The notes beneath the pieces were generated by a model, which was given only the letters and a program-made list of their open reading frames with translations, ran no database searches and had not been told where the DNA came from. A stretch of 35,710 bases of DNA from an uncultured Eubacteriales bacterium (GTDB taxonomy: Bacteria > Bacillota > Clostridia > Christensenellales > Aristaeellaceae): NCBI GenBank assembly GCA_902788445.1, contig CADAKE010000020.1:1-35710 (forward strand), written 5' to 3'. The first letter of the stretch is position 1. Every line of letters begins with the position of its first letter. Below, in pieces: positions 2,544 to 34,572 of this stretch. A program made the translations under genes and the position numbers.

Positions 2544-2664
2544 AGTTAGGAGAGAGGAGATAGAAGATAGGAGATTTATATGGACAGACCGGAGGACAGG
2601 AGCCTGATTGTCGCTCTATCAAAACACGATTCATCTCCTATCTCCTATCTCATAACTCCTATCT
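2544..2664. repeat. Heptad palindrome A1 (AGATAGG type)
   Basis: Left arm 2544-2575 and right arm 2633-2664 are each 32 nt: four 7-nt units plus AGAT at the inner end. Units on the plus strand of the left arm are AGTTAGG, AGAGAGG, AGATAGA and AGATAGG. The right arm read on the minus strand has the same type. The arms face each other across a 57-nt loop and pair well near the loop. The element starts one base after the iorB stop. Confidence 0.8.
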
Positions 2665-2698
2665 GAAAAAAATCCCTCTTTCCTGTTTTGCCATAATA

Positions 2699-2707
2699 TG
2701 CTATAAT
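2699..2707 (+). promoter_or_regulatory. Extended -10 element upstream of alr
   Basis: TGCTATAAT is a perfect extended -10. It ends only 4 nt before the first possible alr ATG, which would leave almost no leader. Either translation starts at the downstream TTG (2724) on an almost leaderless message, or another promoter is used. The motif is clear; its use is inferred. Confidence 0.45.
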
Positions 2708-2711
2708 GTAA

Positions 2712-3845
2712 ATGGAGGCAGCTTTGCAGTATCGGGGAACTTACATCCGGGTGGATCTGCGGGCGATTGCTGCGAACGCGGAAACACTCAAGCGGGCGAC
2801 CGCGCCGCGCCAGCATATGCTGGCGGTGGTGAAGGCCAACGCTTACGGCCACGGCCTGGTGCCGGTGGCGAAAACCGCGCTGAACCATGGCGCGGACTGG
2901 CTGGGCGTGGCGATTCCCGAAGAGGGCGAAGCCCTGCGTCAGGCGGGCGTGGAAGCGCCGATCCTGGTGCTGGGCGCGGTGAACGAGCACGGGGCGGAGG
3001 CCAGCGTAAGAAACCGCCTGACTCAGACGGTGTTTGACCCGGAGCGCGTGCGGATGCTGGAAGAAGCGGCGGATAAGCTGGGAATGACCGTTGATGTGCA
3101 CCTCAAATGCGACACCGGCATGGGTCGCATCGGCGTGCGCACGGAACAGGAACTGCAAACCGTTCTGAAAGCCATTGAAGCGGTTCCCCATGTGCGTTTG
3201 ACGGGCGCGTTCACCCACTTCGCCGACGCGGATGGAAGCAGCGACGTTTACTCCCTCCGCCAGATGGAAGCCTTCCAGCGGATGGTGGACTTGCTGCCCA
3301 AGGGCATCCTCATCCACGCGGCGGCCAGCGCGGCGAGCCTTCGGTATCCCCAGGCGCGGTTCGGCATGGTGCGGCAGGGCATTTCCCTGTACGGCTGCGC
3401 GCCGGTCAGGGAAGCGCCGGAACTGATTCCCGCCCTCTCCTGGCATACGGAAATCGCCTATGTGAAAACCCTGCCCGCTGGGGCCTGCGTCAGCTATGGC
3501 TGCACCTATCAGACGCGGCGGGAAACAAAGGTGGCGACCCTGCCTGTGGGCTACGGCGACGGGTACCACCGCGCCCTGTCCGGCAAAGCCTTTGTGCTGA
3601 TCGGCGGGAAGCGCTGCCCGGTCATCGGCCGGGTGTGCATGGATCAGATCATGGCCGATGTGACGGACGTGCCGGAAGAAAACCTGTACCTCGGCGCTCC
3701 TGCTGTGCTGCTGGGGCGGCAGGGCAACGAGGAAATCACCGCCGACGAATTGGCCTCCTGGGCCGGCACGATCAGCTATGAAATGCTGCTGGCGGTGACG
3801 GCGAGGGTGCCCATCGTATATCAAGATGAACCAAGCCAACTGTAG
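2712..3845 (+). CDS. alr: Alanine racemase
   Basis: PLP-dependent interconversion of L- and D-alanine for peptidoglycan. The PLP lysine is in AVVKANAYGHG near residue 41, and the C-terminal-domain catalytic tyrosine is in SYGCTYQTRRE. GYGDGYHR, RVCMDQIM and the closing ARVPIVY are further family signatures. At 377 residues the length is normal. The start is uncertain: ATG 2712 has no ribosome site, while GGAGG at 2714-2718 sits 5 nt before an in-frame TTG at 2724, giving a protein 4 residues shorter. The last residues QDEPSQL extend past the usual end, and the TAG stop lies within the first bases of a palindromic repeat, so the insertion seems to have set the C-terminus. Confidence 0.95.
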   Translation: MEAALQYRGTYIRVDLRAIAANAETLKRATAPRQHMLAVVKANAYGHGLVPVAKTALNHGADWLGVAIPEEGEALRQAGVEAPILVLGAVNEHGAEASVRNRLTQTVFDPERVRMLEEAADKLGMTVDVHLKCDTGMGRIGVRTEQELQTVLKAIEAVPHVRLTGAFTHFADADGSSDVYSLRQMEAFQRMVDLLPKGILIHAAASAASLRYPQARFGMVRQGISLYGCAPVREAPELIPALSWHTEIAYVKTLPAGACVSYGCTYQTRRETKVATLPVGYGDGYHRALSGKAFVLIGGKRCPVIGRVCMDQIMADVTDVPEENLYLGAPAVLLGRQGNEEITADELASWAGTISYEMLLAVTARVPIVYQDEPSQL

Positions 3846-3927
3846 GGGCGGATATTATCCGCCCGCCTATCGTTCATTATTTCCTTATAAATAATGTGTT
3901 CACGGGCGGATGATATCCGCCCCTACA
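3841..3927. repeat. Palindromic repeat of GTAGGGGCGG type
   Basis: The 25-nt ends (3841-3865 and 3903-3927) are inverted copies with one mismatch. Each end is also a palindrome by itself: GGGCGGATA, one base, TATCCGCCC. The element can therefore fold as one long hairpin or two small ones. Its left end contains the alr stop codon, and its right end is followed at once by the AGAGGG ribosome site of the next gene. Confidence 0.8.
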
Positions 3928-3940
3928 AAGAGGGTTTTCC

Positions 3941-4756
3941 ATGCAGAATCCATCCAAAAACGCCAAGAACAAAAATCCGCTGGTCTTTAAGCCGTATTTG
4001 AAGGGCAGCCTGCTGGACGGCGCGGCGGTGAAGCGGGGCCTGCGCCTGATGGCGTATTACCTCATGTTTGTGTTCATTTATCTGATCGTGGGCAGCGCTT
4101 TGCAGTTTGGCAACTTCGCGGTGCGCACGGCGATGAACCTGCTGATCGTGGTGATTTGCGCCATGATCGTGTACATGGATGGTTCGCGGTTAGGCGAAAG
4201 CGAAGTGGCCTTCGGCGAAATCGCCCTGGCCCGGCAGGAAGCGGGCAAGCCCGTGGACGCCAAGGACAGGGAGCGCTGCTTCCATCCGGGCAAAGGCTGG
4301 ATGATCGCCTTGATCGCCGCCATTCCCGTGGTGCTGATTACGCTTCCCCACGCCCTGACCGCGACAAAGCAGGTGTACACCCTGCAATCCCTGCCCCGCT
4401 GGGTGGCGGGTTATGAAAGCCAGGAGGAACTCGTCGCGCCGCTGTCCTTTTACAACCGGGATCTTTCCATGGGCGTGCTGGACATTCTGCGGCTGGTCTC
4501 CCGCATCCTGATTTTCCCCTTCGCCAACATCGCCACGGCGGACAGGCCCGACCTGCTGCTTTGGATGGACAGGCTGAGCCCGGTGCTCGCGCCGCTCCCG
4601 CTGATCGGCTTCCCGATCGGGTATCTGAGCGGGCCGCGCAGCCGCGCGCTGATTCACGGCGGCATCTCCAGCAGCAACAAGCGCGCCCAGCGGAAAAAGA
4701 AGAAGGCCATTAAAGCCCGCCAGGCGCGGACGCAGAAGAAGAACGAGATCATCTGA
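3941..4756 (+). CDS. Unknown polytopic membrane protein with basic tail
   Basis: I do not recognise a family for this 271-residue protein. About four to five hydrophobic segments are visible: two near residues 33-75 (LMAYYLMFVFIYLIVG and MNLLIVVICAMIVYM), one near 125-145 (MIALIAAIPVVLITL), one around 180-200, and one near 215-230. The last 35 residues are very basic (KRAQRKKKKAIKARQARTQK) and probably face the cytoplasm. Start at ATG 3941 after AGAGGG. It is 3 nt upstream of rsmD, so alr, this gene, rsmD and coaD may share a transcript. No enzyme motif is evident. Confidence 0.8.
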   Translation: MQNPSKNAKNKNPLVFKPYLKGSLLDGAAVKRGLRLMAYYLMFVFIYLIVGSALQFGNFAVRTAMNLLIVVICAMIVYMDGSRLGESEVAFGEIALARQEAGKPVDAKDRERCFHPGKGWMIALIAAIPVVLITLPHALTATKQVYTLQSLPRWVAGYESQEELVAPLSFYNRDLSMGVLDILRLVSRILIFPFANIATADRPDLLLWMDRLSPVLAPLPLIGFPIGYLSGPRSRALIHGGISSSNKRAQRKKKKAIKARQARTQKKNEII

Positions 4757-4759
4757 GCT

Positions 4760-5329
4760 ATGCGGATCATTGCCGGAGAAATGCGCTCCCGGAAGCTGAA
4801 AGCCCCCGAGGGCATGGACACCCGCCCCACCGCCGACCGGGTGAAGGAAGCGCTGTTTTCCATTCTGGGCAGCCGGGTATACGGCGCGCGGGTGCTGGAC
4901 CTGTACGGCGGCAGCGGCGCGCTGGCGCTGGAGGCAATCAGCCGGGGCGCGGAAAGCGCCGTCGTCTGCGACCTGAGCGCCAAAGCCTGCGCGGTGATTC
5001 AGGAGAACATCGACACCCTGAACTGCGGCGAAAGCGTCAAACTGCTTCGCATGAAGGACACCGCCGCCATCAGCGCCCTCCAAAAGAAGCGCGACGCCTT
5101 CGACCTGATTTTCCTTGACCCGCCCTACCGCATGTCCACCGTGCCCATCTGCCAGGCGCTTGTGGACAATGGTTTGCTGAAACCGGACGGGATGATTATC
5201 ATCGAGCATGGCCGGGAAACGCCGCCGGACATTCTGCCGCCGCTTACGCGGACGGATCATCGGGAATACGGCGCGGCGGGTCTGGGCTTTTACCAGCTGA
5301 CACACGGGGAGGGCGGCGATGAACGGTAA
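4760..5329 (+). CDS. rsmD: 16S rRNA (guanine966-N2)-methyltransferase
   Basis: RsmD methylates G966 of 16S rRNA using S-adenosylmethionine. The 189-residue protein opens with MRIIAGEMRSRKL, has the family TRPTADRVKEALFSIL, the SAM-binding VLDLYGGSGALALEA near residue 45-60, and the catalytic DPPY motif (IFLDPPYRMS) near 119. The start lies 3 nt after the upstream stop. The end overlaps coaD by 11 nt. The rsmD-coaD pairing is common in Bacillota, which supports both calls. Confidence 0.94.
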   Translation: MRIIAGEMRSRKLKAPEGMDTRPTADRVKEALFSILGSRVYGARVLDLYGGSGALALEAISRGAESAVVCDLSAKACAVIQENIDTLNCGESVKLLRMKDTAAISALQKKRDAFDLIFLDPPYRMSTVPICQALVDNGLLKPDGMIIIEHGRETPPDILPPLTRTDHREYGAAGLGFYQLTHGEGGDER

Positions 5330-5819
5330 ATTCGGAAAACACTGCTGCCTCTATCCCGGCAGCTTTGACCCCGTGACGCTGGGCCATATGGACGTGATCC
5401 GGCGGGCGGCGGCCATCTTTGATACCGTGGTTGTGGGCGTGCTGCACAACCCGGACAAGCAGGGGCTTTTCCCTGTGGAGCGGCGCGTGGAAATGCTGAA
5501 ACGCGCCTGCGAAGGAATCCCCAACGTGGAAATCATTGCCTGGCCCGGCCTGCTGGCCCATCTGACGCGGGAAACGGGCATCCGCGTGGTGGTGCGCGGG
5601 GTGCGGAACGCCGCCGACCTGGACAGCGAAAGCATGATGGCCCACATCAACGGCCAGCTGGACCCGGGCCTGGAAACGCTGTTCCTGCCCGCTTCCCCGC
5701 ATCACGCTGATATCAGCGCCAGCATGGTGCGGCAGCTTGCCCAGTTTGGCGCGGATATTTCAAACTATGTTCCCTCTCAGGTTTTGCCGGATATTCTGGC
5801 AGCCTTTGCAAAACCGTGA
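5319..5819 (+). CDS. coaD: Phosphopantetheine adenylyltransferase
   Basis: CoaD transfers AMP from ATP to 4'-phosphopantetheine, the penultimate step of coenzyme A synthesis. The 166-residue length is typical. PGSFDPVTLGHMDVI near residues 13-27 contains the nucleotidyltransferase T/H-x-G-H motif, RGVRNAADLDSE is the conserved middle, and ISASMVR stands for the usual ISSTxVR. The ATG is inside the end of rsmD (11-nt overlap), with GGAGGGCGG just upstream. Nothing suggests special regulation. Confidence 0.95.
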   Translation: MNGKFGKHCCLYPGSFDPVTLGHMDVIRRAAAIFDTVVVGVLHNPDKQGLFPVERRVEMLKRACEGIPNVEIIAWPGLLAHLTRETGIRVVVRGVRNAADLDSESMMAHINGQLDPGLETLFLPASPHHADISASMVRQLAQFGADISNYVPSQVLPDILAAFAKP

Positions 5820-5844
5820 CCCATATTTAAAGGAGGATGTCATC

Positions 5845-6471
5845 ATGTCTACCAATCGCCTCATGACCTTTGAACTGTTGGATCGTATGGAACAGATTCT
5901 GTCAGAAGCCTGGGCCGTCCCGCTGACCAAGAAAATCATGCTGGAAAAAGAGGAATTCTCCAGCCTGATGCGCCGCCTGGAGGAAAGCATCCCCGTGGAC
6001 GTGCAGAACGCCAAGACCATCATCGACCAGGAAGAAGCCATCATTTCCGAAAGCAACCGCATCGCCGAGGAAACCACCACCAAGGCCACGCGGGAAGCCA
6101 ACACCGCCCTGGAGCAGGCCAAGAGCGACGCCAACGCCATGGTGAACGACGCCCAGGCCCGCGCCGCCGAGACCCTGCGGTCCTCCACCGACCAGGCCAA
6201 CGCCATGGTCGCCGACGCCCAGACCCGCGCCAACGCCCTGGTGGCTGACGCCCAGGCCCGCGCCCAGCAGTTGGTGGCGGACAGCGAAATCGTCGCCCGC
6301 GCCCAGGCCGAGGCCCAGGAAATGCTGGAAAGCGCCCACCGCGAATGCGAAGCCTACACCGCTCGCGTGCACGACGCCATCAACCAGCTCATGGAGCAGC
6401 TGGACATGAGCGTGAACCAGCAGGCCGAGGCTGTCCGCGCCCTGCGGCAGCAGTACGCCAGCCAGCAATAA
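5845..6471 (+). CDS. Coiled-coil protein with 11-residue repeats
   Basis: A 208-residue soluble protein, almost wholly helical by composition. The first 60 residues are a mixed N-terminal region. From about residue 95 to 150 an 11-residue unit repeats, of the type ANAMVADAQAR (variants ANAMVNDAQAR, ANALVADAQAR), a hendecad pattern like that of V-ATPase H/E subunits, the F0 b stalk or DivIVA-like proteins. Similar proteins near coaD in Clostridia are often called ATPase subunit H-like or DivIVA-like from memory; that name is not a proven function. AGGAGG at 5831-5836 lies 8 nt before the ATG. No membrane segment is seen. A division or scaffold role is speculative. Confidence 0.8.
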   Translation: MSTNRLMTFELLDRMEQILSEAWAVPLTKKIMLEKEEFSSLMRRLEESIPVDVQNAKTIIDQEEAIISESNRIAEETTTKATREANTALEQAKSDANAMVNDAQARAAETLRSSTDQANAMVADAQTRANALVADAQARAQQLVADSEIVARAQAEAQEMLESAHRECEAYTARVHDAINQLMEQLDMSVNQQAEAVRALRQQYASQQ

Positions 6472-6474
6472 GTC

Positions 6475-6581
6475 AGTTAGAAGTTATAAGTTAGGAGATA
6501 GGAGCTCTATCGTGCTTTTATCGTACACCCTGACGCGTGAACAGCTTCAATCTCCTCTCTCCTATCTTGTCTCTCCTATCT
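6475..6581. repeat. Heptad palindrome A2 (AGATAGG type)
   Basis: Left arm 6475-6506 (units AGTTAGA, AGTTATA, AGTTAGG, AGATAGG, then AGCT) and right arm 6550-6581 (minus-strand units AGATAGG, AGAGACA, AGATAGG, AGAGAGG, then AGAT) are both exactly 32 nt, with a 43-nt loop. Register and arm length are kept although individual units differ. It starts 3 nt after the stop of the coiled-coil gene. Confidence 0.75.
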
Positions 6582-6621
6582 GAAAACAGCCGCCGATCAA
6601 ATAAAAACTTTGCAAAATCCC

Positions 6622-6650
6622 TTGACATCCGAGGGCCTTCTGGATATACT
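6622..6650 (+). promoter_or_regulatory. Sigma-A promoter for rpmH-rnpA-yidD-yidC-jag
   Basis: TTGACA (6622-6627), a 17-nt spacer and TATACT (6645-6650). A second -10-like TATAAT follows at 6650-6655 with a 22-nt spacer. The rpmH start lies about 80 nt further on. Confidence 0.85.
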
Positions 6651-6737
6651 ATAATGGCTGTTTTGTGGTGGTTTGGATCACAATGCGCAGAATAATGCCA
6701 TCCGGCATTTCGGATTTTAGAAGGAGTTGTTGTTCTC

Positions 6738-6897
6738 ATGAAACGTACCTATCAGCCCAAGAAACGCCAGCGCAACAAGGTGCATGGTTTCCGTGCCCGC
6801 ATGAGCACCAAGAACGGCCGCAAGGTGCTGGCCCCCGCGCTTGCCAAAGAGCATGGAATCGCGGGGCGGGTTTGCTTTTGCGCGCGCGTCCGCGTAA
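6738..6897 (+). CDS. rpmH: Ribosomal protein L34, abnormal C-terminus
   Basis: The first 34 residues are an unmistakable L34 ([20 protein letters not shown], then [11 protein letters not shown]), a small basic protein of the large ribosomal subunit, usually 44 residues. The expected basic ending (of the ARRAKGRKRL type) and stop codon are missing. In frame, the reading continues with [16 protein letters not shown] and finds no stop until 7526, the stop of yidD. The nearest stop in the +1 frame is TAA 6895-6897, after ..ARASA, so I place the end there provisionally. A hairpin lies across this region. A frameshift, a small rearrangement or an assembly error are all possible. AAGGAG upstream supports the start. 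Confidence 0.75.
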
Positions 6898-6913
6898 CGG
6901 GGCAAAAGCAAAC
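6870..6913. other. 12-bp hairpin between rpmH and rnpA
   Basis: GTTTGCTTTTGC (6870-6881) is the exact reverse complement of GCAAAAGCAAAC (6902-6913), with a 20-nt GC-rich loop. No U tract follows, so it is not a classic terminator. It falls exactly where the L34 frame loses its normal end, and may be an RNA processing or attenuation structure ahead of rnpA. Confidence 0.65.
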
Positions 6914-6942
6914 GGGACGATCAACAACGCAGTTGGGAGCTT

Positions 6943-7281
6943 ATGGAGAAGCAGTATCGCCTGAGGAAGAACGGGCAGTTTCGCTATGTCTACAAAAAGG
7001 GCAAGGGCGGGGCGTGCCGGGAAATGTCGGTGGGCTTTGTGAAGGGGCCGAAGCTGATGGTGGGGTTTTCGGTGAGCAAGAAAATCGGCAACGCCGTTAC
7101 CCGCAACAAGGTCAGGCGCCGGCTGCGCGAAGCGTTCCGGGCGGAACTGCCCTCCCTTCGCCGGGGACTGTACGTGGTCACAGCGCGGGAGGCCGCCGCG
7201 GAAGCGGACTTTGCCCGTCTGCGGCAGTCGCTGCGGTATCTGCTGCGCAGGCAGGCCCTGTATCGGGACGACGCGAAATGA
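6943..7281 (+). CDS. rnpA: Ribonuclease P protein component
   Basis: RnpA is the protein cofactor that helps the RNase P RNA cleave tRNA 5' leaders. The 112-residue protein shows the family core: [10 protein letters not shown] near residue 15, [25 protein letters not shown] around 47-70 (containing the conserved RNR-type segment), then a basic end. GGGAG at 6935-6939 precedes the ATG. It overlaps yidD by 4 nt (ATGA). Order rpmH-rnpA-yidD-yidC-jag is the standard one. Confidence 0.95.
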
Positions 7282-7526
7282 AACGTATCCTGCTTTCCGT
7301 GATCCGCTTTTACCGGAGAAAGGTCAGCCCCGGGCTGCCGTATGCCTGCCGATTTACGCCCACATGCTCGGAATATGCCGAGGAAGCGATCCGGCGTTTT
7401 GGCGCGGCGCGGGGGAGCCAGCTGGCCGCGCGGCGTCTGCTTCGGTGCCATCCTTTCGCCAGAGGCGGATATGACCCCGTGCCCGAGGCCCCCAGCGCTA
7501 TCATTAGGAGGGACGAAAATCCTTGA
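7278..7526 (+). CDS. yidD: Membrane protein insertion efficiency factor
   Basis: YidD is a small peripheral membrane protein that assists YidC-dependent insertion. All key features are present in 82 residues: [29 protein letters not shown] with its conserved cysteines, and [16 protein letters not shown]. The start overlaps the rnpA stop and the TGA stop overlaps the yidC TTG start. Its frame is the same as that of rpmH 540 nt upstream, without an intervening stop, which I take as a by-product of the damaged rpmH end. Confidence 0.93.
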
Positions 7527-8575
7527 ACGCGATTGAGCAATTCCTGTATAACGTCCTTGCGGGCATCAACGGCCTGGTGGGGAACTACGGTGTGTCCATC
7601 ATCATCTTCACCGTGCTGATGCGCCTGATCATCATGCCCTTCGACTACAGGAGCCGCAAGGGGATGCGCAAGATGGCGCTGATTCAGCCCAAGATCAACG
7701 AACTGCAAAAGAAATACGCCAAAGACCAGCAAAAGCTCCAGCAGAAGCAGGCCGAGCTGATGAAGAAGGAAGGCTACAATCCCCTGTCCGGGTGCCTGCC
7801 GCTGCTGCTGACCTGGCCCATCATGTTTGCCATGTTCGCCGCCATGCGCGGCATCGCCAACGAACAGATGGCCCTGCAAACCTTCCGCTACCTCGCCGGG
7901 GAAACCAACATCATTTCCGCCGCCGACCGGTTCCTGTGGGTTAAGAACATCTGGATGGCGGACTCCCTGTTCGCGTCCATCGCCCCCAACGCCCAGGCGC
8001 TGAACCTGATTCCCGCCAACATGTGGCAGCGCGCGTATGAAACGCTGTCCGAAGGGCAGGTTTCCGCCATCGCGCAGAGCATCGCCTCCGTCGGCGGCGC
8101 GGCGCTGGACTTTTCCACCTCCGACGCGGTGAAAACCAGCGTGACCACCATGCTGACCGCTCTGGGCCAGATGCCCAGCTACGTTGAAGCTGTGGCGACC
8201 GTGCCCGGCTGGAGCGGCGTCAGCTTCTTCCTGTTCACCATCACCCTGTACAAGCAGTACAACGGCCTGCTGATCCTGCCCGTGCTGGCGGGCGTGAGCC
8301 AGGTGCTGCAATACAAATTCAACCCCGCGATGAACGAAAACCAGCAGACCCAGCAAAACGCGAACAATCAGGCCGCCGGGATGAATAACTTCATGAAGTA
8401 TTTCTTCCCCATCCTGTCCGTGTTCTGGTGCCTGACCTCCAACGCCGGTTTCGCCGTGTACTGGGTCACCTCCACCATCGCCATGTGGATTCAGAGCGTT
8501 ATCATCACCAAAATCCTTGAGAAACAAGACGAGCGCAAAGCGCAGTCTGTATCCGGAGAGGGGTCCATTAAATAA
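7523..8575 (+). CDS. yidC: Membrane protein insertase YidC/Oxa1
   Basis: YidC inserts and folds membrane proteins, alone or with SecYEG. The 350-residue protein has a first membrane segment near 20-40 ([20 protein letters not shown], containing the hydrophilic-groove arginine), the cytoplasmic coiled segment [41 protein letters not shown], and C-terminal segments ending in [18 protein letters not shown]. The start codon is TTG, overlapping the yidD TGA; AGGAGGG lies 10 nt upstream and no better start exists. The periplasmic insert (about residues 120-200) is longer than in B. subtilis SpoIIIJ. Its stop overlaps the jag start by one base. Confidence 0.94.
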
Positions 8576-9534
8576 TGAAAGTATACGAATACTCCGCCCG
8601 CAGCATCCAGGAAGCCATTGACCATGGCCTGGAGGAACTGGGCGTAGCAATCAGCGACGTGACAGTGGACGTGCTGGAGGAAGGCAGCAAGGGCCTGTTT
8701 GGCCTGTTCGGCTCCCGCCTCGCCAAAGTGCGCATCACGCTGAAAGAAGAAGAAGCGTCGGACGACGTGGCCCGCGCCATCCTGGCCGACGCCATGAAGG
8801 CCGATGAACCCAAACCCCGCAAGCAGGAAAAACCGGAAAAGCCCGTCAAGGCCGAAAAAGAAGAGAAAGCCGAAAAGCCCGCGAAGCCCCGCAAGCCCCG
8901 GGAACCCAAAGCGCCGAAAGAGGAAACGGTGAAAGCGGAAGCCGCGAAGGAAGAAGCGCCCAAGGAAAAGGCGGAGCCCAAGAAGGAAAGCAAGCCCAAG
9001 GCTCCCCGCCCCCCCAAAGCGCCGAAGGAACCCAAAGAACCCAAGGAGCAGAAGGAAATCGTGCCTGCCGAGCAGGCGGACCGCGGCACCGCCGCCGGAC
9101 GCGCCCAGGAGTTTTTGCAGGAAGTGACCAAGCTGATGGGCGTGAACGTGTCCGTGGCTGTGGCGAACGATGAAGAAGGCAACGTGCGCGTGAACATGGA
9201 AGGCGACACCCTGGGCATCCTGATCGGACGCCGGGGCGAAACGCTGGACGCGCTGCAATACCTGACCAGCTTGCAGGTGAACAAGGGCCAGGATGACTAC
9301 ACCCGCGTGACCCTGGACACCGAGGGCTACCGCGCCAAGCGCGAGGAAGCGCTGGTGCGCCTGGCCAATCGCATGGCGAACCGGGCCCAGAAGACGGGCC
9401 GCAAGGTGAGCCTGGAGCCCATGAATCCCTATGAGCGCCGCATTTTGCACAGCGCCCTCCAGGATCATCCCGCCGTCACCACCCATTCCGAGGGCGAAGA
9501 ACCCAACCGGCATGTGGTGATTACGCTGAAATAA
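8575..9534 (+). CDS. jag: KhpB/Jag RNA-binding protein
   Basis: Jag (KhpB) is a cytoplasmic RNA-binding protein linked to cell-wall synthesis and division. Residues 1-60 are the Jag_N domain ([35 protein letters not shown]). Residues about 80-165 form a long linker very rich in Lys, Glu, Pro and Ala. Then follows the KH domain with GILIGRRGETLDALQYL near 220, and the R3H domain near 290 (MNPYERRILHSALQ). The 319-residue total is long because of the linker. It closes the operon and is followed by a terminator. The mnmE-mnmG genes that usually come next are absent here. Confidence 0.92.
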   Translation: MKVYEYSARSIQEAIDHGLEELGVAISDVTVDVLEEGSKGLFGLFGSRLAKVRITLKEEEASDDVARAILADAMKADEPKPRKQEKPEKPVKAEKEEKAEKPAKPRKPREPKAPKEETVKAEAAKEEAPKEKAEPKKESKPKAPRPPKAPKEPKEPKEQKEIVPAEQADRGTAAGRAQEFLQEVTKLMGVNVSVAVANDEEGNVRVNMEGDTLGILIGRRGETLDALQYLTSLQVNKGQDDYTRVTLDTEGYRAKREEALVRLANRMANRAQKTGRKVSLEPMNPYERRILHSALQDHPAVTTHSEGEEPNRHVVITLK

Positions 9535-9545
9535 GCTGAAGATAA

Positions 9546-9583
9546 AAAAGCCGCTGCCAGAAGGATTTGGCAGCGGCTTTTAT
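9546..9583. terminator. Bidirectional terminator, jag / hepT
   Basis: AAAAGCCGCTGCCA and its exact complement flank a 7-nt loop; T tracts follow on both strands, stronger on the minus strand. It ends the jag transcript and overlaps the hepT stop codon. Confidence 0.9.
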
Positions 9584-9933
9584 GTTGTTTGCATTTCGGA
9601 CAGTATCTCCTGTAGCCGGGCCCGAAGCTGGGGAATATCCGTATGAATGGTTGTCCAGATCACTTGCATTTGAAGGCCGTCATAATCGTGCACGATATGG
9701 TTCCGCAGGGATTTCATGGCTGTCCACGGCAAATCAGGATAACGGTCGACGCAGTCTGTCCGATTGGATAAAACCGTGGCCAGTTCGCCCAATTGCGTCA
9801 GCGCGAAAACGGTAAAGGTGACATACAGTTCATTCTGGACAAATCCATCGTAAGAAATATTCTGTGCGTATTTCATCGCGTTATCGCATTGGTGAATCAT
9901 TTTCAGCATTGTGAGCCGCTGGTCAATTGCCAT
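9580..9933 (-). CDS. hepT: HepT-like HEPN ribonuclease toxin
   Basis: A 117-residue DUF86/HepT-type protein. The HEPN active-site motif RX4HXY is present as RNHIVHDY near residue 80-90. In known HepT/MntA systems the tyrosine of this motif is AMPylated by the antitoxin, which shuts the RNase off; the tyrosine is kept here. The gene starts inside the end of mntA (11-nt overlap), the usual arrangement. The DNA is visibly less GC-rich than its neighbours, which suggests gain by transfer. Family assignment is firm; activity is inferred. Confidence 0.88.
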   Translation of the reverse strand: MAIDQRLTMLKMIHQCDNAMKYAQNISYDGFVQNELYVTFTVFALTQLGELATVLSNRTDCVDRYPDLPWTAMKSLRNHIVHDYDGLQMQVIWTTIHTDIPQLRARLQEILSEMQTT

Positions 9934-10228
9934 ACACCGTCACCCCTGTGCGCTTGATTTCTCTGTCCACCTGGGAATCCGGGATCACGTCCAGATCAGG
10001 AATCAAGTCGATGTCCTTTTGAAACGCGTTTTCCAGCTGGCCTTTCAGCGTAAAGAACGCAAAGCCGGTCAATTGACGATTGCTGTCCACATAAAAATCC
10101 ATGTCAGAACCCGCTTCGGCGTTTCCACTGGCATGGGAACCGAACAGCACCAGCTTTTTGATCCGCTTATCAAGGGGAAGCGAGGACAGCGTTCTTTGAA
10201 TGTCTGAAATCGAATACATACCTGACAT
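9923..10228 (-). CDS. mntA: MntA-like nucleotidyltransferase antitoxin
   Basis: A 101-residue minimal nucleotidyltransferase. LVLFGSHASGNAEAGSDMD contains the complete GSX10DXD active site near residues 30-43, followed by FYVD. In characterised type VII toxin-antitoxin systems this enzyme AMPylates HepT. It is the upstream gene of the pair. GAGGTGA 4 nt before the ATG at 10228 fixes the start, and a clear promoter lies just upstream. Base composition is again lower in GC than the flanks. An alternative role in defence against phage is plausible for such pairs but not shown here. Confidence 0.88.
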   Translation of the reverse strand: MSGMYSISDIQRTLSSLPLDKRIKKLVLFGSHASGNAEAGSDMDFYVDSNRQLTGFAFFTLKGQLENAFQKDIDLIPDLDVIPDSQVDREIKRTGVTVYGN

Positions 10229-10250
10229 ACGATCACCTCACTCTGAAAGC

Positions 10251-10279
10251 ATTATATACGATTTTTTCCGGTTTGACAA
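10251..10279 (-). promoter_or_regulatory. Promoter of mntA-hepT
   Basis: On the minus strand: TTGTCA, 17-nt spacer, TATAAT. The start codon of mntA lies 23 nt below the -10. No obvious operator palindrome was seen. Confidence 0.75.
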
Positions 10280-10363
10280 TAGAAGGTGGCATGAACCACA
10301 CGGCCAACACATGAGTGGTAACCTTAAACAAAAAGGATGGCCTTTAATTTCCCGAAAATCCCA

Positions 10364-10392
10364 TTGACAACAATCGCCAAAACATGTATACT
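10364..10392 (+). promoter_or_regulatory. Sigma-A promoter of uraA
   Basis: TTGACA (10364-10369), 17-nt spacer, TATACT (10387-10392). The predicted start near 10399 places the PyrR-type hairpin at the very 5' end of the leader, about 190 nt ahead of the coding region. Confidence 0.88.
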
Positions 10393-10399
10393 TTCCATG

Positions 10400-10510
10400 G
10401 TTCATCTTTAAGGCGGTACAGAGAGACCGGCAAGAGACGATGGAACGCTTTTGCGTGCGCGGGAAACCGCGCCATGGGGTCTGCCTGTAACCGGGCAGTC
10501 CTTTTTCTTT
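10400..10510 (+). promoter_or_regulatory. PyrR-type pyrimidine attenuator in the uraA leader
   Basis: The leader RNA holds a PyrR-binding-like hairpin: outer stem GTTC/ATC with GATGGAAC (10400-10446), an upper stem CGGT/ACCG around 10414-10427 and the loop ACAGAGAG, close to the known PyrR recognition core CAGAGAGG with a following GCAAG. Downstream, GG-T-CTGCC pairs with GGCAG-T-CC (10478-10501), followed by TTTTTCTTTT, an intrinsic terminator. The expected logic is that UMP-loaded PyrR stabilises the first hairpin and lets the terminator form, shutting uracil uptake off. No pyrR gene is in the window. Confidence 0.8.
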
Positions 10511-10591
10511 TGGGCCGGAGGATGAGCGCAAATTCAGCATATTAACGCTTCATGGCGCTAATATAAATTCTTGACAGGGGGAACATTACCG

Positions 10592-11917: not shown

Positions 11918-11933
11918 CCCCAACCGCATGAAC

Positions 11934-11971
11934 ATAACAAGCCCGTCGGTTCGCCCGGCGGGCTTGTTATA
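11934..11971. terminator. Bidirectional terminator, uraA / GGDEF gene
   Basis: ATAACAAGCCCG and CGGGCTTGTTAT flank a short GC stem and ttcg loop. It serves two convergent genes. Confidence 0.88.
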
Positions 11972-11988
11972 TTCCCTTGTTCAATACG

Positions 11989-16528: not shown

Positions 16529-16530
16529 TC

Positions 16531-25691: not shown

Positions 25692-26407
25692 TTATTCGGC
25701 GTCGGCGGGCGCTTCTTCAGCGGCGGCTTCTTCCACAGGCGCTTCCTCAGCGGGAGCTTCTTCGGCTTCGCCGGGGATTTCCAGGTCGCCGTTCTCCAGG
25801 ACGGATTCGTCGGCCAGGGCTTCGCGGATGCTCAGGCTGATGCGCTTGGCTTCGGGATCAACGCCCAGGACTTTCACCAGCACGATCTGGCCCTCTTGCA
25901 GCACGTCTTCCACCTTGGCAACGCGGGTGGGAGCAACCTGGGAAATATGCACCAGGCCATCCACGCCGGGCTCCAGCTCGATGAACGCGCCGAAGGGACG
26001 GATGCGCACCACGGGACGCTCCAGGATGGCGCCCACGGGATACTTTTCTTCGATGTTGTCCCAGGGCTTGGGCTGCAGTTCCTTGTAGCCCAGCTGGATG
26101 CGTTCGCGTTCGCGGTCGAGGCTCTTGATCTTCACTTCGATTTCCTGGTTCACCTGCAGCACGTCGCTGGGATGATTGACGCGGCTCCAGGCCAGGTCGG
26201 TGATGTGGATCAGGCCGTCCACGCCGCCCAGGTCAACAAACGCGCCGAAGTCCGCGAAGCGGCGAACGATACCGGTCACCACAGCGCCCACTTCGAGCTT
26301 TTCCCAGGCCGCTTCCTTCTTGGCCTTGTTTTCTTCCTCGATGACCTGCTTGCGGCTGGCCACGATGCGCTTCTTCTGCTTGTCCACGTCGATGATCTTG
26401 AGCTTCG
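25692..26407 (-). pseudogene. S1 domain protein, C-terminal part (frame broken)
   Basis: Holds the end of the S1 part of an IspH-S1 fusion: the tail of S1 domain 2 (KLKIIDVDKQKKRIVASRKQ), complete domain 3 (GAVVTGIVRRFADFGAFVDL), complete domain 4 (GAILERPVVRIRPFGAFIEL) and an acidic Glu/Ala-rich tail. S1 domains bind RNA, in ribosomal S1 to mRNA. The frame is cut from the upstream part by an apparent loss of about 80 nt near 26407-26420. If translated alone it would use the GTG at 26387, without a clear ribosome site. A terminator follows. Confidence 0.82.
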
Positions 26408-26758
26408 AACGCCGCCCTCGACGCTGGCGAGCAGGCCGCCCTTGACGGCTTCCTTGCCCACGGCGTCGATGTATTCGCCGTTCTCATACTTTTCCATCAG
26501 CGCGTCCCAAGCCTTGCGGTTGACGATGTTGCGCTGGGAGAGCAGGACGTTGCCTTCGCCGTCGTTGACCTTGACGACCTCGACCTCAATCTCGTCGCCG
26601 AGCTTCACGTCCTGATCCACCAAGTCGGAGCGCTTGATCAGGCCATCGGACTTGTAGCCGATGTTGACGCACACTTCGTCGTCGGTGATTTGTACCACGG
26701 TGCCCGTAACGGTTTGGCCCGTGCGGATGCGAACCACGGTCTTTTCGATGTCTTCCAT
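26408..26758 (-). pseudogene. S1 domain protein, N-terminal part (frame broken)
   Basis: Contains S1 domain 1 (GQTVTGTVVQITDDEVCVNIGYKSDGLI, here given as three pieces of one domain) and the first half of domain 2, up to KGGLLASVEGG. The middle of domain 2, normally the VRGFIPASQ type stretch, is missing, and the frame changes there. Upstream, the ATG at 26758 overlaps the out-of-frame IspH end. In intact clostridial fusions this region is continuous with IspH and with the downstream S1 domains. Functional products from this copy are doubtful. Confidence 0.78.
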
Positions 26759-27522
26759 GGTGAGCGCCTGGCCGGGATTTCGGCGGCACGTTCCACCAGA
26801 ATGGTGCGCGGGCAGATGGCCCTGCAGACTTCATATAATTTGCGGGTGTTGGCGCTGCTCCTGCCGCCCACCACCACCATGGCGTCCACCTTCGCGGCGA
26901 GGGCCTCGGCCTCCCGCTGGCGCATTTGCGTGGCGGGGCAGATGGTACACCGCGCGTCCAAGCGGGGAAACCTTGCTTCCAGGCGGCGCAGGATCTTTTC
27001 CCAGGCGGAGAGGGAAAACGTGGTCTGCGATACGGCGAGGGCTTTGTCCATTGGGGGCAGCGCGTCCACGTCCTGTTCATTCTGGACGATGTGGCATTCT
27101 CCCGGGCACCAGGCTGCCGTGCCCTGCACCTCGGGATGCTCCGGTTCGCCCACCAGGATGACGGGGATGCCCGCTTCGCCGCTTTCGCGGACGATTTTGT
27201 GCAGCGCCCGGACGGAACCGCAGGTGGTGTCCCGGATGATCAGCCCCTGGCGGCGGCACTGCTCCTCCACCTGGGGGGATACGCCGTGGCTGCGCAGTAA
27301 AATGATGCTGCCTTTTTCCGCTTCCTCCACCCGGCTGATGGATACGACGCCTTCCTTCTGAAGGGCGCTCACCGCCTCCGGGTTGTGGATCAGTTCGCCC
27401 AGGGAATAGCACTTCACGTTCATTTCCCGGGCTTCCCGCGCGGCCTGGAACGCGATCTCCATGGCCCTGCGGACGCCGGCGCAGTAACCGGCGTAGCGTG
27501 CGATGGTGTAGGGCATCTTCAT
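26638..27522 (-). pseudogene. ispH: 4-hydroxy-3-methylbut-2-enyl diphosphate reductase, C-terminus lost
   Basis: IspH is the last enzyme of the MEP isoprenoid pathway, an iron-sulfur reductase. The three cluster cysteines are present (YAGYCAGVRRA, DTTCGSVRA, CTICPATQMRQ), as are the histidines in LIHNPEAV and RSHGV, GEPEHPEV and SSANTRKL. Homology stops at AAEIPA (about base 26770). The last 30-35 residues, with the AGAST-type substrate-binding serine, are missing, and an unrelated tail in the wrong frame runs to 26638. The S1 frame starts only about 10 nt beyond the break. Start at ATG 27522 (GGAG 4 nt before) or ATG 27516. This enzyme is normally essential unless another copy exists. Confidence 0.82.
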
Positions 27523-27698: not shown

Positions 27699-28013
27699 AA
27701 AAGCCTTTCCGGCAAGGCAATGTCGTCAACTTAAGGCGAAACAATACCAACCAAGAGACTTATAACGAACAACGAAAACTGTCATCCCGACCGAAGCGGA
27801 GGCGAGAGCCGCAGCGCAGTGGAGGGACCTGTGAGTAACGCCATCAATTAAGCAATATCATATTCAGCTTTCAGGTCCCTCCACTGCGCTGCGGCTCTTG
27901 CCTCCGCTTCGGTCGGGATGACAATGGGTGGATGGTTGAAAAATGTTACTTGGTTCATATTAGAAAGTATTTTGCTTAAGTTGACGACATTGCCCCCGAG
28001 GGGGAAGGCTTTT
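27699..28013. repeat. Outer palindrome of a nested repeat
   Basis: Ends 27699-27735 and 27975-28013 face each other. An 18-nt core is perfect (CAATGTCGTCAACTTAAG at 27718-27735 against 27975-27992), and the outermost AAAAGCC/GGCTTTT also match, with divergent bases between. A second, unrelated palindrome sits inside. Together they fill most of the region between ispH and spoIIR. Confidence 0.85.
27780..27923. repeat. Palindromic repeat of TGTCATCC type, copy 2 (inner)
   Basis: Two 52-nt arms (27780-27831 and 27872-27923) match at 51 of 52 positions, loop 40 nt. Ends read TGTCATCCCGACCGAAGCGG and GGAGGGACCTG. It aligns over its length with the element at 14552-14694, with many changes mirrored on both arms. 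Near-identity of the arms implies recent insertion or active correction. Confidence 0.88.
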
Positions 28014-28041
28014 GGACGGTAGATTCTCTGAACTTTGTACA

Positions 28042-28074
28042 CTAATCCCTAATCCCTATTCTCTAATCCCTTAA
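28042..28074. repeat. Solo heptad arm, D type
   Basis: A lone pyrimidine-rich arm; on the minus strand the units are GGGATTA, GAGAATA, GGGATTA, GGGATTA, GTG. No matching purine arm lies within several hundred bases upstream. It matches the right arm of the element at 29261-29391. Confidence 0.65.
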
Positions 28075-29245: not shown

Positions 29246-29260
29246 GTTGTATGTTGGGTT

Positions 29261-29391
29261 TGGGGAGTAGGGAGTAGGGAAGAGGGAGTAGGGAGTAGGG
29301 AATAGAAATTAGAAGAGAGAAGTCTCACTGTCTATTGCCTAATCCCTAATCCCTATTGCCTATTGCCTAATCCCTTGTCCCTAATCCCTTT
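29261..29391. repeat. Heptad palindrome D (GGGAGTA type)
   Basis: Left arm 29261-29306 has six units (mostly GGGAGTA, also GGGAAGA, GGGAATA). Right arm 29332-29391 has eight (on the minus strand GGGATTA, GGGACAA, GGCAATA). Arms are longer and less complementary than in families A-C. It ends 1 nt from the yajC stop codon. Confidence 0.75.
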
Positions 29392-32216: not shown

Positions 32217-33261
32217 AAAAAACTGGAAAGAGCTGCTGATGGGCTACTGCACGGCGCTTCTGCTCGCGTTAGGCATGAGCCTTTCGCTGTTCCGGGCCTT
32301 CGCGCCCCGGCAGGCGCTGTGGCCCATCCTGCCGCTGTGCGCGGGCATGACGCTGGCGCTGCACGCGCTCTTCCAGCTTCGGTTCAAGCATAAAAAATGG
32401 ATATTCCTTGCCCTGACCGCCGCGCTTTCCCTGTGGGGCGCGCTGGGCGGCGGGCCGGTTCACGACGTGATTCAGATGGGCAAAGCGGCCTACCTGTCCT
32501 TCCTGGGCATTCCCGACGCGCTGGCGCCGTTTGCCGGAACGGCGCGCTGGGCGCTGTGCCTGCTGCTTTCGCTGCTCGGCGCGGCGCTGTACTGGGATCA
32601 CACGGTGCCGCTCGCCATCTTCACGGTGCTCAGCATGGTGGGCATTTCCTTCGCGTTCGGCGAGCAGGAAGCGCTGCTTCTGTGCGCGCTGCCTTCCGCC
32701 GCGGGCGTGCTTTTAATGATGGCGCGGGAGAACGCCAAGCGGCTGTCCGCGCTGCCCATTGCGGCGGTTCTGACGGCGCTGGCGTTTCTTTTGCTGCCCG
32801 CGAAGCCGCAGGCCGTGTCGCCGTTCCAGGAAATTGCCCAGAACATCCGGCAGTTCGTGGAAGATTATCTGCTGTTCAATGAGTTCCGTTCCGCTTTCAC
32901 GCTGACCTCCGAGGGCTTCCAGCCGTTGGACGACCGCCTGGGCGGCCCGGCGGAACCCAAGGAACACGACGTGATGGAGGTCAATACCGACCGCAAGGTG
33001 CTCCTGCGGGGCAAAACCTACGACCAGTACACCGGCCTCAACTGGTATGATACCTTGTCCAGCCGGCGCTATCTGTCCGTGTCACCGCGGTACACCGCCC
33101 TGCGGGAGGAACTGTTCGACCTGAACCGGCCTTTGGCGGGCGATGATTCCGCCCTGCTTTCCATGCGCGTCAGGATGCTGGATCAGGGCACGACCACGCT
33201 GTTCGCGCCGGGCCACCCGCAGCCTGCAATTGGAAGGGGAGCGGATGGTGCTGTACTATAA
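32200..33261 (+). pseudogene. TgpA-like transglutaminase membrane protein, N-terminal part
   Basis: First part of a gene split by a one-base frameshift. About six membrane segments occupy residues 10-205, followed by an extracytoplasmic region (TYDQYTGLNWYDTLSSRRYL near 270). The last real residues are FAPGHP; after that the frame leaves the family and stops at 33261. GGTGGAGG precedes the ATG, which lies inside the end of the DUF58 gene. The break is at a CCC run, 33216-33218: one extra C would explain it. The full protein would be about 760 residues, a normal length. Confidence 0.85.
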
Positions 33262-34486
33262 CACCGCCGGGGAATATTTCCTGACCCGCGGCCTGGAGCC
33301 GGGGGACAGCTACAGCCTGACCTACCTGCCCTATGAGGCGGGCGCGCCGGGCGTGGCGCAATTGGTGAGCGACAACGCGGGGATGAACGACCCGTATTAT
33401 GAAGAAATCGCCAGCCGGTATTTGCAGATCCCCCAGCATATGCAGATCCCCCAGCATATTCAGAAGGAGGTCTACGACATTGCCGCCCGGGCGACAGAAG
33501 GTCGGGAAACGCCCTACCAAAAAGCCCTGGGCATCATGAATTACCTGCGCCGGAATTACCGTTACAGCCTGGACGTTCAGGAGCCGCCGGAGGCGGTGGA
33601 CTTTATCGCCTGGTTTTTGATCGGCGAGCGGGAGGGCTACTGCACCTATTTCGCCTCCGCCATGACCATGCTCTGCCGCATCGCGGGGATTCCCGCGCGG
33701 TACGTGACAGGCTATGTGGCGCTGCCCAATGACAGCGGGGTGACGGTGGTCTCCGGAAAGCACGCGCACGCCTGGACGGAAATTTACCTGAACGGCTTTG
33801 GCTGGCTGCCGATCGACGCGACCCCGCGCTCCGATTACGGCGACGACCCGCTGCCGGAGGACGATCCGCCGCCGAGCGGAGGAAACAACGCGCCCGCGCC
33901 GACCGCCACGCCCGAACCGACGGCGCTGCCGACCGTCCCGCCTGTCGAAGCGCCCACGCCGGAACCCTCTCCCGAACCCACGGAAACGCCGGAAAATAAC
34001 AGCGACCAGCCGACGCCGACGCCCGCTCCGCCCCCGCCGGACGAGCCGCCGCCGGAAGCGCCGCCCCAGGAGAATGGCCCAAAGCAGCCCTTCCCGTGGT
34101 GGATGATCCTGCTCTTGCTGGCGCTTATTGCCCTGATCGTCCTGCGCGTGTACCTGACCGAGCCGGTTCGCCAGGCGGAACGCCACCCTGACCGGGCGGT
34201 GTCCATCCTGTTCTTCGCGGTCGCCGCGCTGCTTTCCGTCCGCGGCCTGCGGCGGATGCCGAATGAAACCCTGCATGATTTTGCCGGTCGGGTGGACAGC
34301 GCGCCGAAGAAAGGAAGCCTGCCTGATATTCTGCCGCTGGTGGACGCTTACGCTTCCCAAGTGTATGGCCGTCACCGGATAAACGGCAATGAATATCAGG
34401 AAATTTACATCGCCGTGCGGAATGCCGCTTTGCCGCTTGCGCGCTTGCGTGTCACGGTCCGGCGGATATTTAAAGGGAACAGATAA
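33218..34486 (+). pseudogene. TgpA-like transglutaminase membrane protein, catalytic part
   Basis: Continues the split gene from RSLQLEGERMV. The transglutaminase core has the catalytic cysteine in GEREGYCTYFASAM, the histidine in GKHAHAWTEIY and the aspartate in GWLPIDATP. A Pro/Thr/Glu-rich linker follows (about 33850-34080), then one membrane segment (WWMILLLLALIALIVLRVYL) and a C-terminal DUF4129-like region with LHDFAGRV and VYGRHRI. An exact 18-nt tandem duplication lies at 33423-33458. Such proteins act on cell-surface substrates, which are unknown here. If the frameshift is an error, the gene is whole. Confidence 0.85.
33423..33458 (+). repeat. 18-nt exact tandem duplication in tgpA
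   Basis: The unit TGCAGATCCCCCAGCATA occurs twice back to back, adding six residues (a second IPQHMQ-like block) in frame. Typical of replication slippage. Confidence 0.9.
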
Positions 34487-34540
34487 CGTAAGTGTTCATT
34501 CAACTGTGACTTTATGGGCACTTTAAGTCACTAACGTTTT

Positions 34541-34572
34541 AGAGTGCAGAGTTCAGAGTACAGAGTTCAGAT
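34541..34572. repeat. Solo heptad arm, C type
   Basis: A lone purine-rich arm of exactly 32 nt: AGAGTGC, AGAGTTC, AGAGTAC, AGAGTTC, AGAT. No complementary arm follows before the terminator. It matches the left arm at 24128-24159. Confidence 0.75.

Follow-up and report, generated by a model that had tools for sequence, protein, structure and literature searches.

The window, by which we mean the whole 35,710-nucleotide stretch of DNA analysed here, contains five intergenic palindromes, each built of two arms of 7-nt units around a loop. Site 1 (2544-2664; arms 2544-2575 and 2633-2664 of GGAGATA-type heptads, loop 2576-2632) begins 1 nt past the stop codon of a gene with a POR domain and has an alanine racemase gene on its far side. 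Site 2 (6475-6581; arms 6475-6506 and 6550-6581, loop 6507-6549) lies 3 nt past the stop of an open reading frame (5737-6471) that gave no match in a Pfam search, with an open reading frame carrying L34 and YidD domains on the far side. Site 3 (21273-21393; arms 21273-21305 and 21362-21393, loop 21306-21361) is flanked by a CggR-like gene on the minus strand and by pgk, and the CggR-like stop codon (21388-21390) falls within a heptad arm. The stop of a minus-strand gene with a PIG-L domain is 14 nt from site 4 (24128-24231; AGAGTNC heptad arms 24128-24159 and 24207-24231, loop 24160-24206), and site 5 (25514-25634; GGAGTGT heptad arms 25514-25545 and 25603-25634, loop 25546-25602) lies between an S1-domain gene and the PIG-L gene, with the S1-domain stop 57 nt away and a GC-rich palindrome intervening.

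Measurement of arms, loops and 7-nt repetition bore out the shared design that an earlier note had described for these sites. The arms are, in order from site 1 to site 5, 32, 32, 32, 32, 33, 32, 32, 25, 32 and 32 nt long, with 16-22 matches at a distance of 7 among the 18-26 positions compared, and the loops do measure 43-57 nt. The words AGATAGG, AGTGTGG and AGAGTGC, taken in that note for three unrelated families, are in fact related: all conform to RGAG-NNN. The window holds further heptad arms: a single CTAATCC-type arm at 28039-28071, a pair at 29254-29382 made of a GGGAGTA-type arm (29254-29314) and a CCTAATC-type arm (29327-29382), and one arm in 34480-34637. This last, a plus-strand AGAGTNC arm (34541-34572) for which a partner was sought and not found, sits inside an IS66-type miniature element (34488-34629) with the left end GTAAGTGTTCATTC at 34488-34501 and the right end at 34616-34629. 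A second shell, GGGCACTTTAAGTCA (34516-34530, plus strand), lies within these ends, and the 8-bp target-site duplication CAGATAAC flanks the element on the left (34480-34487) and on the right (34630-34637).

In the window's own genome, GGAGNNNGGAGNNNGGAG has 98+78 matches against 3+1 for the reversed pattern, and GAGTNNRGAGTNNRGAGTNNRGAG has 111+110 against 0 for its reversed control; because the matches are dispersed and the controls nearly absent, the five sites are not due to chance and form part of a genome-wide set, in which several heptad-word families coexist. An arm of 32 nt, found in eight of the ten arms at the five sites, is a typical length, but the claim that it is fixed proved too strong genome-wide: among 58 heptad inverted repeats the arm has a median of 31 nt (IQR 25-33), measuring 31-33 nt in 19 and exactly 32 nt in six, and the loop a median of 55 nt (IQR 46-60). 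What had been put as a purine-rich arm coming first is better stated as the G-richer arm first, which holds for 54 of the 58 (four ties, none reversed), for 13 of 14 heptad repeats in a scan of five species (one reversed) and for 17 of 19 further heptad repeats at cross-phylum loci (one tie, one reversed). Non-heptad inverted repeats of the same genome share this lean (17 vs 2), so it is not peculiar to heptads. The five-species scan for inverted repeats covered 435.6 kb; it found 7-nt periodic arms in 14 of 21 inverted repeats, and no other period qualified. Viral contigs contained 0, 31, 7, 9 and 0 repeat stretches at units of 6, 7, 8, 9 and 10 nt, the nine at unit 9 being a raw scan count. 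Seven is the commonest unit and not the sole one, with some of 8 and 9.

Comparison of the five sites with the orthologous regions of relatives revealed clear presence/absence variation, as the note's account required. At every one of them the heptad word is a different one in at least one relative, and at sites 3 and 4 the element is absent from several relatives, site 3 being empty in five. Of the 51 loops compared within the genome, 33 fall into single-linkage clusters of 27, 4 and 2, and 18 stand alone; a given word does not always go with a given loop, since the loop of a GGAG-word element (L044) clusters with three GGAGTGT-word loops and those 18 have no match. Among the six pairs of site-5 loops with a shared word, one match is strong, three are weak and two pairs have none, and the loops of G017 and G023, whose word there is identical, match at z 21.5. 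Two of six own-genome AGAGTNC loop pairs match, and at site 3 G000 and G021 have word and junction in common and loops that do not match.

Members of the IS66 family have GTAA ends and are flanked by 8-bp duplications. The own-genome loci include 19 pairs of such GTAA-type ends, 16 with a heptad array inside, and over these pairs the identity of an 8-bp duplication averages 0.76, compared with 0.32-0.35 at lengths 4-7, 9 and 10; it reaches at least 7/8 in 11 of the 19 (null 3%). The end sequence occurs at 58+63 places in the genome (control 0+2). In the window the only pair of IS66-type ends is that at 34488-34629, so the five named sites carry none. The genome has a single match to an IS66 transposase, which terminates within the GTAA-type end sequence, and a transposase fragment with the same end is present in two genomes of the genus; the contig bearing the fragment is nearly identical to one in G022, so that it may be a contaminant or a recent transfer. 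Target duplications were absent from all 42 other own-genome copies tested (18 GGGC-only and 24 heptad-only) and from the 104 cross-phylum copies tested, which therefore bear no transposition signature. Since heptad-only and cross-phylum copies have neither ends nor duplications, we rejected the idea that IS66 moves every copy. The elements resemble IS66-family MITEs in their GTAA ends, their 8-bp duplications and the transposase fragment carrying the same end, but differ in that the ends occur on a subset of copies only and that the heptad core is also found without them and in other phyla.

The five sites are probably copies of a small, mobile and non-autonomous kind of palindrome. In its typical form the element has a G-rich arm of some four tandem heptads, then a loop of roughly 45-60 nt, then a C-rich reverse-complementary arm; copies lie close behind stop codons, mostly between same-direction genes, and would spread as whole units, arms and loop together. 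The heptad word would be a family mark, and different families are found at one landing site in different species. Some copies in the genome are nested in inverted-repeat shells, GGGCRCTTTAARTCA and then, outermost, the IS66-family end GTAAYTGKTCAGTC, with 8-bp duplications, and copies without shells would presumably also have been moved by an enzyme acting in trans. Positions behind stop codons may be preferred because the RNA can accommodate, or profit from, a long hairpin at that point. Among candidate movers we rejected RAYT, the transposase of a REPIN/RAYT study reportedly by Bertels and Rainey, since Y1_Tnp (PF01797) had 0 matches in the genome (80% complete), the same search being positive in five of 14 control genomes. 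The IS110 transposase (PF01548) gave one match at 21.1 bits, under the 29-bit cut-off passed by four of 14 controls, and the integron integrase (TIGR02249) gave three, the best at 38.3 bits where the cut-off is 265, a score that none of the 14 control genomes reached either.

It seems unlikely, though worth weighing, that the sites are instead a selected RNA device, a hairpin behind the stop codon whose role would be to protect, process or terminate the upstream mRNA, with new arms recruited and the word left free. Proximity to stop codons, which belongs to the case for mobile palindromes too, speaks for it in two data sets: 21 of 24 heptad-only own-genome copies lie within 25 nt of a stop (control 18%) and 39 of 63 cross-phylum copies within 20 nt (control 18%), in tests that rest on open reading frames, some of them spurious, a weakness that the controls share (site 5, for one, scored 0 nt, its true gene end being 57 nt off). 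Tandem gene orientation, a part of the case for mobile palindromes, was found in 26 of 30 heptad-bearing intergenic regions against 101 of 153 heptad-free ones, on rough gene calls that missed the stop beside site 1. The predicted RNA folds of all five sites on the plus strand, and of three on the minus strand, are stable relative to shuffles (z -3.8 to -16.0), which also favours such a device, as do the other words in relatives at each site and the account, in passages of PMC4692102, of Xanthomonas transcripts whose starts or ends fall on G-quadruplex-forming heptad repeats at a higher rate than on control repeats. An Rfam search of the window gave no match at the gathering threshold, that is, no known RNA family, and a terminator scan that returned nothing at sites 3-5 is uninformative here because it admits loops of 3-8 nt only. 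Such a device would not conflict with copies arising by mobility. However, empty sites are common (sites 3 and 4), and the two arms of an element share a vocabulary and nothing closer.

That last point also counts against the slippage-based or templated arm maker suggested in the earlier note, which the data do not support. Within an element the left and right arms agree at 21.61 of 25 positions, no better than the 21.67 for arms taken from different elements (permutation p 0.65, n = 33), and direct copying from arm to arm is not supported. Growth of paired arms in place, by 7-nt polymerase slippage and strand switching seeded at hairpins already present, is improbable: it would suit the dominance of unit 7 with some 8 and 9, the loops without a match, and site 5, where both arms are, by eye, longer in G021 than in G022, but identical words are dispersed genome-wide, most loops cluster among dispersed copies, sites without the element exist, and some copies are framed by 8-bp duplications. 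Of three loops from elements with the same word elsewhere in the genome, the loop of window site 5 resembles two (L001, z 7.8; L013, z 4.1) and not the third (L032, z -0.2), and it resembles none of four loops with another word at the orthologous site (z -1.7 to 0.4). Synthesis templated in trans, by a telomerase-like enzyme adding G-rich heptads to both 3' ends of a break, would yield the G-arm-first polarity and fits the several G-rich words and units of 7-9 nt, but is highly improbable given that the genome (80% complete) has no RVT_1 (reverse transcriptase) match, that many loops travel with their arms and that non-heptad repeats lean the same way. For the five sites we equally disfavour, as very improbable, the reading put forward for Xanthomonas and Nostoc, that of ordinary simple sequence repeats of G-quadruplex type: GGGATTA and GGGAGTA have the G-triplet, but GGAGATA, AGAGTNC, GGAGTGT and AAGTTCN lack it and share the same build.

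Mobile palindromes of this build may extend well beyond the genus. Paired GAGT-type heptad arms occur in records whose titles name at least ten phyla, and constant architecture with a changing word, the core of the earlier note, is seen inside the one genome, at orthologous intergenic positions of different species and from phylum to phylum. A paired heptad repeat was present at two of five loci in G058 and at none of the six examined in G125. The reversed control also matched in some genomes (G058, 0+2 against 4+8 forward; G129, 5+1 against 11+1), and in G115 (38+46) and G079 (0+5) it matched where the forward pattern gave 0, matches that may be heptads of other words. The strongest loop matches at the cross-phylum loci are among Ruminococcus flavefaciens records (L192, L213 and L239) and within one genome (L195 and L217). 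Loops L240 and L261 (Anaerolineales, Acidobacteria) score highly too. One loop common to all phyla was rejected, the strongest matches being within a species or genome and many weaker pairs looking like leftover heptads. We tentatively propose, as a possibility we hold less likely than its opposite, mobile palindromes that form one class across phyla and owe their identity to architecture: units of 7 nt (less often 8 or 9), about four per arm, the G-rich arm first, a loop of about 50 nt and landing close behind stop codons without target duplication, with candidate machinery that would read repeat phase and hairpin shape and not a fixed sequence.

Our literature search agreed with the note in finding no description of paired heptads in Clostridia, but Xanthomonas does have them. 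Its GGGAATC heptads, the closest known system (Rehm et al. 2015, PMC4692102), are described in the sections cited here as most often four units long, with convergent pairs numbering 70 in one genome and 75 in another, near stop codons, mostly transcribed, seldom between divergent genes, and varying in length and sequence between species. The G-rich arrays, convergent pairs and stop-codon adjacency recur in our elements. Unlike ours, they have one word and are interpreted as G-quadruplex repeats, for which GGAGATA, GGAGTGT and AGAGTNC have no GGG; mobility, loop homology and word replacement are not among the features described in those sections, which cover Xanthomonas and Nostoc, the latter with few pairs. 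REPINs, as portrayed in parts of PMC3116915, likewise are dispersed, hairpin-forming units of two inverted arms and a spacer, but here the arms are tandem heptads and the genome has no Y1 transposase match. The TAACTGA repeats of Beggiatoaceae and cyanobacteria (MacGregor 2015, PMC4679880) are also intergenic heptad arrays scattered among distant groups; in the portions of that paper drawn on here, however, they are direct, with a single indirect repeat, and in the main strain mostly stand directly before start codons.

According to PMC4692102, heptads were found in 2007 to be over-represented among the simple repeats of many bacterial genomes, and that paper knows of no function for them. That over-representation is now tied to a probably mobile element that is shaped like a hairpin, has a favoured place of landing and occurs in groups as far apart as Nostoc, Prevotella and Clostridia, and the oddity becomes a testable question of what moves it and why its unit has seven letters. 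A site that holds different words in different relatives serves as a natural experiment for telling selection on shape apart from selection on sequence, and in such bacteria many mRNAs may end in, or include, a long hairpin that has no Rfam name.

All five palindromes described in the earlier note, at 2544-2664 (site 1), 6475-6581 (site 2), 21273-21393 (site 3), 24128-24231 (site 4) and 25514-25634 (site 5), are present, with arms of 32 nt in eight of ten cases, 33 nt in one and 25 nt in one, and with loops of 43-57 nt, as had been claimed. The eight strands that we folded (five plus and three minus) all gave long hairpins, with z scores of -3.8 to -16.0. The unit sequences, here called words, had been assigned to three unrelated families, a division that does not stand, since GGAGATA, GGAGTGT and AGAGTNC all match RGAG-NNN. 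Further heptad sites lie at 28039-28071, 29254-29382 and 34541-34572, and by eye the upstream gene at site 3 terminates within the heptad arm, which takes in its stop codon.

The build is abundant in the 3.10-Mb own genome, where GGAGNNNGGAGNNNGGAG has 98+78 matches against 3+1 for the reversed pattern and GAGTNNRGAGTNNRGAGTNNRGAG has 111+110 against none. A word-free scan for inverted repeats (arms of at least 20 nt, identity of at least 0.8, loops of 20-130) over the window and 20 stretches from four same-genus species, picked by synteny with the window, returned 21 repeats in 435.6 kb. The 7-nt periodicity of the arms was recovered across these five species in 14 of the 21 (autocorrelation of at least 0.6, a level reached at none of the other periods between 2 and 12). 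Tandem arrays numbered 53 at period 7 and 4, 1, 3, 5 and 5 at periods 4, 5, 8, 10 and 11; periods 6, 9 and 12 gave 35, 36 and 30, an abundance that we take as codon-driven. The own-genome loci examined, which are no census, being mostly retrieved through heptad or shell patterns, hold 79 inverted repeats, 58 of them heptad (autocorrelation of at least 0.55), with a median arm of 31 (IQR 25-33) and a median loop of 55 (IQR 46-60). G exceeds C in the first arm of 54 of these 58, with equality in 4 and the reverse in none; the same polarity is found in 17 of 21 non-heptad own-genome inverted repeats (2 reversed), in 13 of the 14 heptad repeats of the 435.6-kb scan (1 reversed) and in 17 of 19 further heptad repeats of cross-phylum loci (one tie, one reversed).

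Parts of window positions 1-20000 align in all 28 other genus genomes searched, the rest of the window was compared with ten of those 28, and the relatives examined at the five sites were those with good synteny. Site 1 carries GGAGATA in the own genome, GTAGGAG in G017 and AGAGTNC in G023 and G021, with no element recognised in G022, G015 or G027. At site 2, AGAGTNC occurs in G017, G023, G021 and G022, the last also having GGGATTA, with none in G015 and G027. Site 3 has GGAG in the own genome and G021, AGAGTNC in G022, GTAGGAG in G008 and GGAGTGT in G016; site 4 has AGAGTNC in the own genome and GGAGTGT in G021, with none in G023, G017, G022 or G015; and site 5 has GGAGTGT in the own genome and AGAGTNC in G017 (by eye), G023, G022 and G021, with at most a remnant in G015. 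The claim of a constant build with a changing word is thus upheld, a differing word being found in at least one relative at all five sites, and presence/absence variation is also seen, as at site 3, where the element is absent from five relatives (G023, G017, G015, G014 and G024). Of the 25 site-species cells given by the five sites and G015, G017, G021, G022 and G023, 14 contain an element, though common descent means that the cells are not independent; as a rough share, 30 of 183 of all intergenic regions of at least 60 nt hold a heptad array. By eye, a second heptad palindrome is apparently nested within the first at site 3 of G021.

Judged from loop sequences, word differences at one site seem to reflect element replacement rather than conversion of the arms. 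The window's site-5 loop matches none of the four orthologous-site loops that accompany another word (z -1.7 to 0.4); among three same-word loops elsewhere in the own genome it matches two, with z 7.8 (L001) and 4.1 (L013), against -0.2 for L032. Among themselves, the four orthologous loops give z 21.5 for G017-G023 and 4.5-4.6 for three pairs, with two pairs unmatched. No pair matches among the site-3 loops of the own genome, G021, G022 and G016 (z of at most 0.4), those of the own genome and G021 being unmatched despite a common word and junction, and two of six own-genome AGAGTNC loop pairs match (z 4.3 and 5.4). Single-linkage clustering of 51 own-genome loops gave clusters of 27, 4 and 2 and 18 singletons; in the cluster of four, L044, whose word is GGAG, groups with three elements of the GGAGTGT word, so that the link between word and loop is not strict. 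The earlier note had also suggested, as one possibility, that slippage or templating makes the arms, which our comparisons did not bear out. Because whole elements seem to move and to replace one another, such an arm maker is unnecessary for dispersal, and the arms of one element are uncoupled: in 33 GGAG-type elements they agree at 21.61 of 25 positions, against 21.67 across elements (permutation p 0.65), which disfavours both snap-back templating and pairing-specific selection beyond the common vocabulary.

A frame of GGRCRCTTTAARTCA, the inner, GGGC shell, surrounds many of the own-genome copies; this sequence occurs at 131+105 places with up to two mismatches (control 9+7). Among 20 places selected for exact matches or close pairs, 18 were paired. 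What the frames contain varies: heptads of the words AAGTTCN, GGAG, GGCAATA or GGGATTA, in L296 a mixed pair, and in L308 a palindrome that is not built of heptads. By eye, an extra nested palindrome lies between the arms in all six frames that have one (L295-L300), and one arm is truncated in L295 and L297. L296 is chimeric, with a GGAG-word and a GGGATTA-word arm in one GGGC frame and a third palindrome between them. Outside the GGRCRCTTTAARTCA frame, GTAAYTGKTCAGTC occurs at 58+63 places with up to one mismatch (control 0+2). In 19 pairs of such ends, identity between the two flanks is 0.76 at a length of 8 nt and 0.32-0.35 at other lengths; 11 pairs agree at 7 or more of 8 positions (null 3%), and 16 enclose a heptad array. 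GTAA ends with 8-bp duplications we take to be marks of IS66. The only framed element with IS66-type ends in the window, at 34488-34629, is flanked on both sides by CAGATAAC. Target duplication was absent by permutation from GGGC-only (n=18, p 0.34) and heptad-only (n=24, p 0.26) copies of the own genome.

As to candidate movers, an IS66 transposase is matched only once in the own genome, by an open frame of 72 aa that lies at the end of a contig and whose stop codon falls within an exact GTAATTGTTCAGTC; G022 has an IS66 frame arranged in the same way, and two of the 29 genomes searched gave a match. Own-genome contig C136 and the end of G022 contig C13 (loci L309 and L310) look nearly identical over an IS66 fragment and what we read as a xylanase-like gene, although elsewhere these genomes mostly align at an identity of about 74-91%; a recent transfer or contamination is possible. 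In the 80% complete own genome, PF01797 and PF00078 had no match and PF01548 one under the cut-off; TIGR02249 had three far under it, and no control genome passed the cut-off.

The window holds other palindromes and blocks. A nested palindrome of a different kind at 27716-27994 has perfect 20-nt outer arms GGCAATGTCGTCAACTTAAG (27716-27735, 27975-27994) and contains a 52-nt palindrome TGTCATCCCGACC... (27780-27923). A second, at 14552-14694, has outer arms TGTCATCCTGAGCGGAG and an inner 32-nt pair (14578-14667); a repeat resembling it lies in the loop of a G022 heptad element (L105). A repeat similar to the palindrome TGTAGGGGCGGATATTATCCGCCC (3841-3927) forms the centre of GGGC shell L308. 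A 366-nt block at 26406-26771 is 91-98% identical in ten relatives, with flanks mostly below 90%, and has no Rfam match.

Searched in one genome per species of 84,980 species, the pattern GAGTNNRGAGTNNRGAGTN{38,68}ACTCYNNACTC was found in at least 114 stretches, where about one or two in 257 Gb would be expected by chance under equal base frequencies, from which real genomes deviate. By record title, the 80 stretches listed, some sharing a genome, comprise Bacteroidota 17, Firmicutes 17, Cyanobacteria 15, Acidobacteria 9, Planctomycetes 7, Proteobacteria (old sense) 7, Chloroflexi 2, Gemmatimonadetes 2, Spirochaetes 1, Nitrospirae 1 and uncultured 2. Besides the matched elements these 80 loci hold 38 inverted repeats, with period 7 in 19 (median arm 32, loop 45), 8 in 3 and 9 in 1. 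In viral contigs, units of 6, 7, 8, 9 and 10 of the same pattern gave 0, 31, 7, 9 and 0 stretches; a unit of seven dominates, and eight and nine also occur. Viral loci L342, L347 and L348 carry an octad version of the build (GGAGTGAT type), and the first two have a common loop. A four-unit GAGT pattern, which other words would escape, occurs in 6 of 200 genomes of the order, own genome included, and is lacking in same-genus G028. At the 104 cross-phylum loci with enough flank (of the 114 retrieved), GTAA ends with duplication were found at none. Words common to both flanks did not exceed in length those of shuffled pairs, reaching at least 6 nt at 1.0% of loci against 2.9%, and outer inverted words of at least 8 nt were found at 4.8% against 1.8%.

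Among the 63 of the 80 listed loci with enough flank, a stop lies within 20 nt at 39 (control 18%) and the start side at 14 (control 21%). Within 25 nt, the own genome has a stop at 21 of 24 heptad-only, 12 of 25 GGGC and 13 of 20 IS66-shell copies (control 18%), no stop being scored for 8 GGGC and 5 IS66 copies, all with short flanks retrieved; these tests rest on open frames, some spurious, as at window site 5, which scored 0 nt through a frame opposite the real gene.

The nearest described system is the paired GGGAATC heptads of Xanthomonas, for which Rehm et al. 2015 (PMC4692102) give four units as commonest, 70 and 75 convergent pairs, a position adjoining stop codons and a treatment as G-quadruplex repeats. 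TAACTGA heptads are described as direct repeats (MacGregor 2015, PMC4679880), and REPINs are defined in PMC3116915. In literature searches without preprints and most subscription papers, paired heptad palindromes were nowhere presented as a class that is mobile or that spans phyla. Our confidence in mobility is slightly lowered by the loop of L044 and by the fact that loops of one word family match only in part; the best explanation, which we hold with moderate confidence, is that the sites are copies of non-autonomous mobile palindromes, and the observation itself holds and extends far beyond the window.
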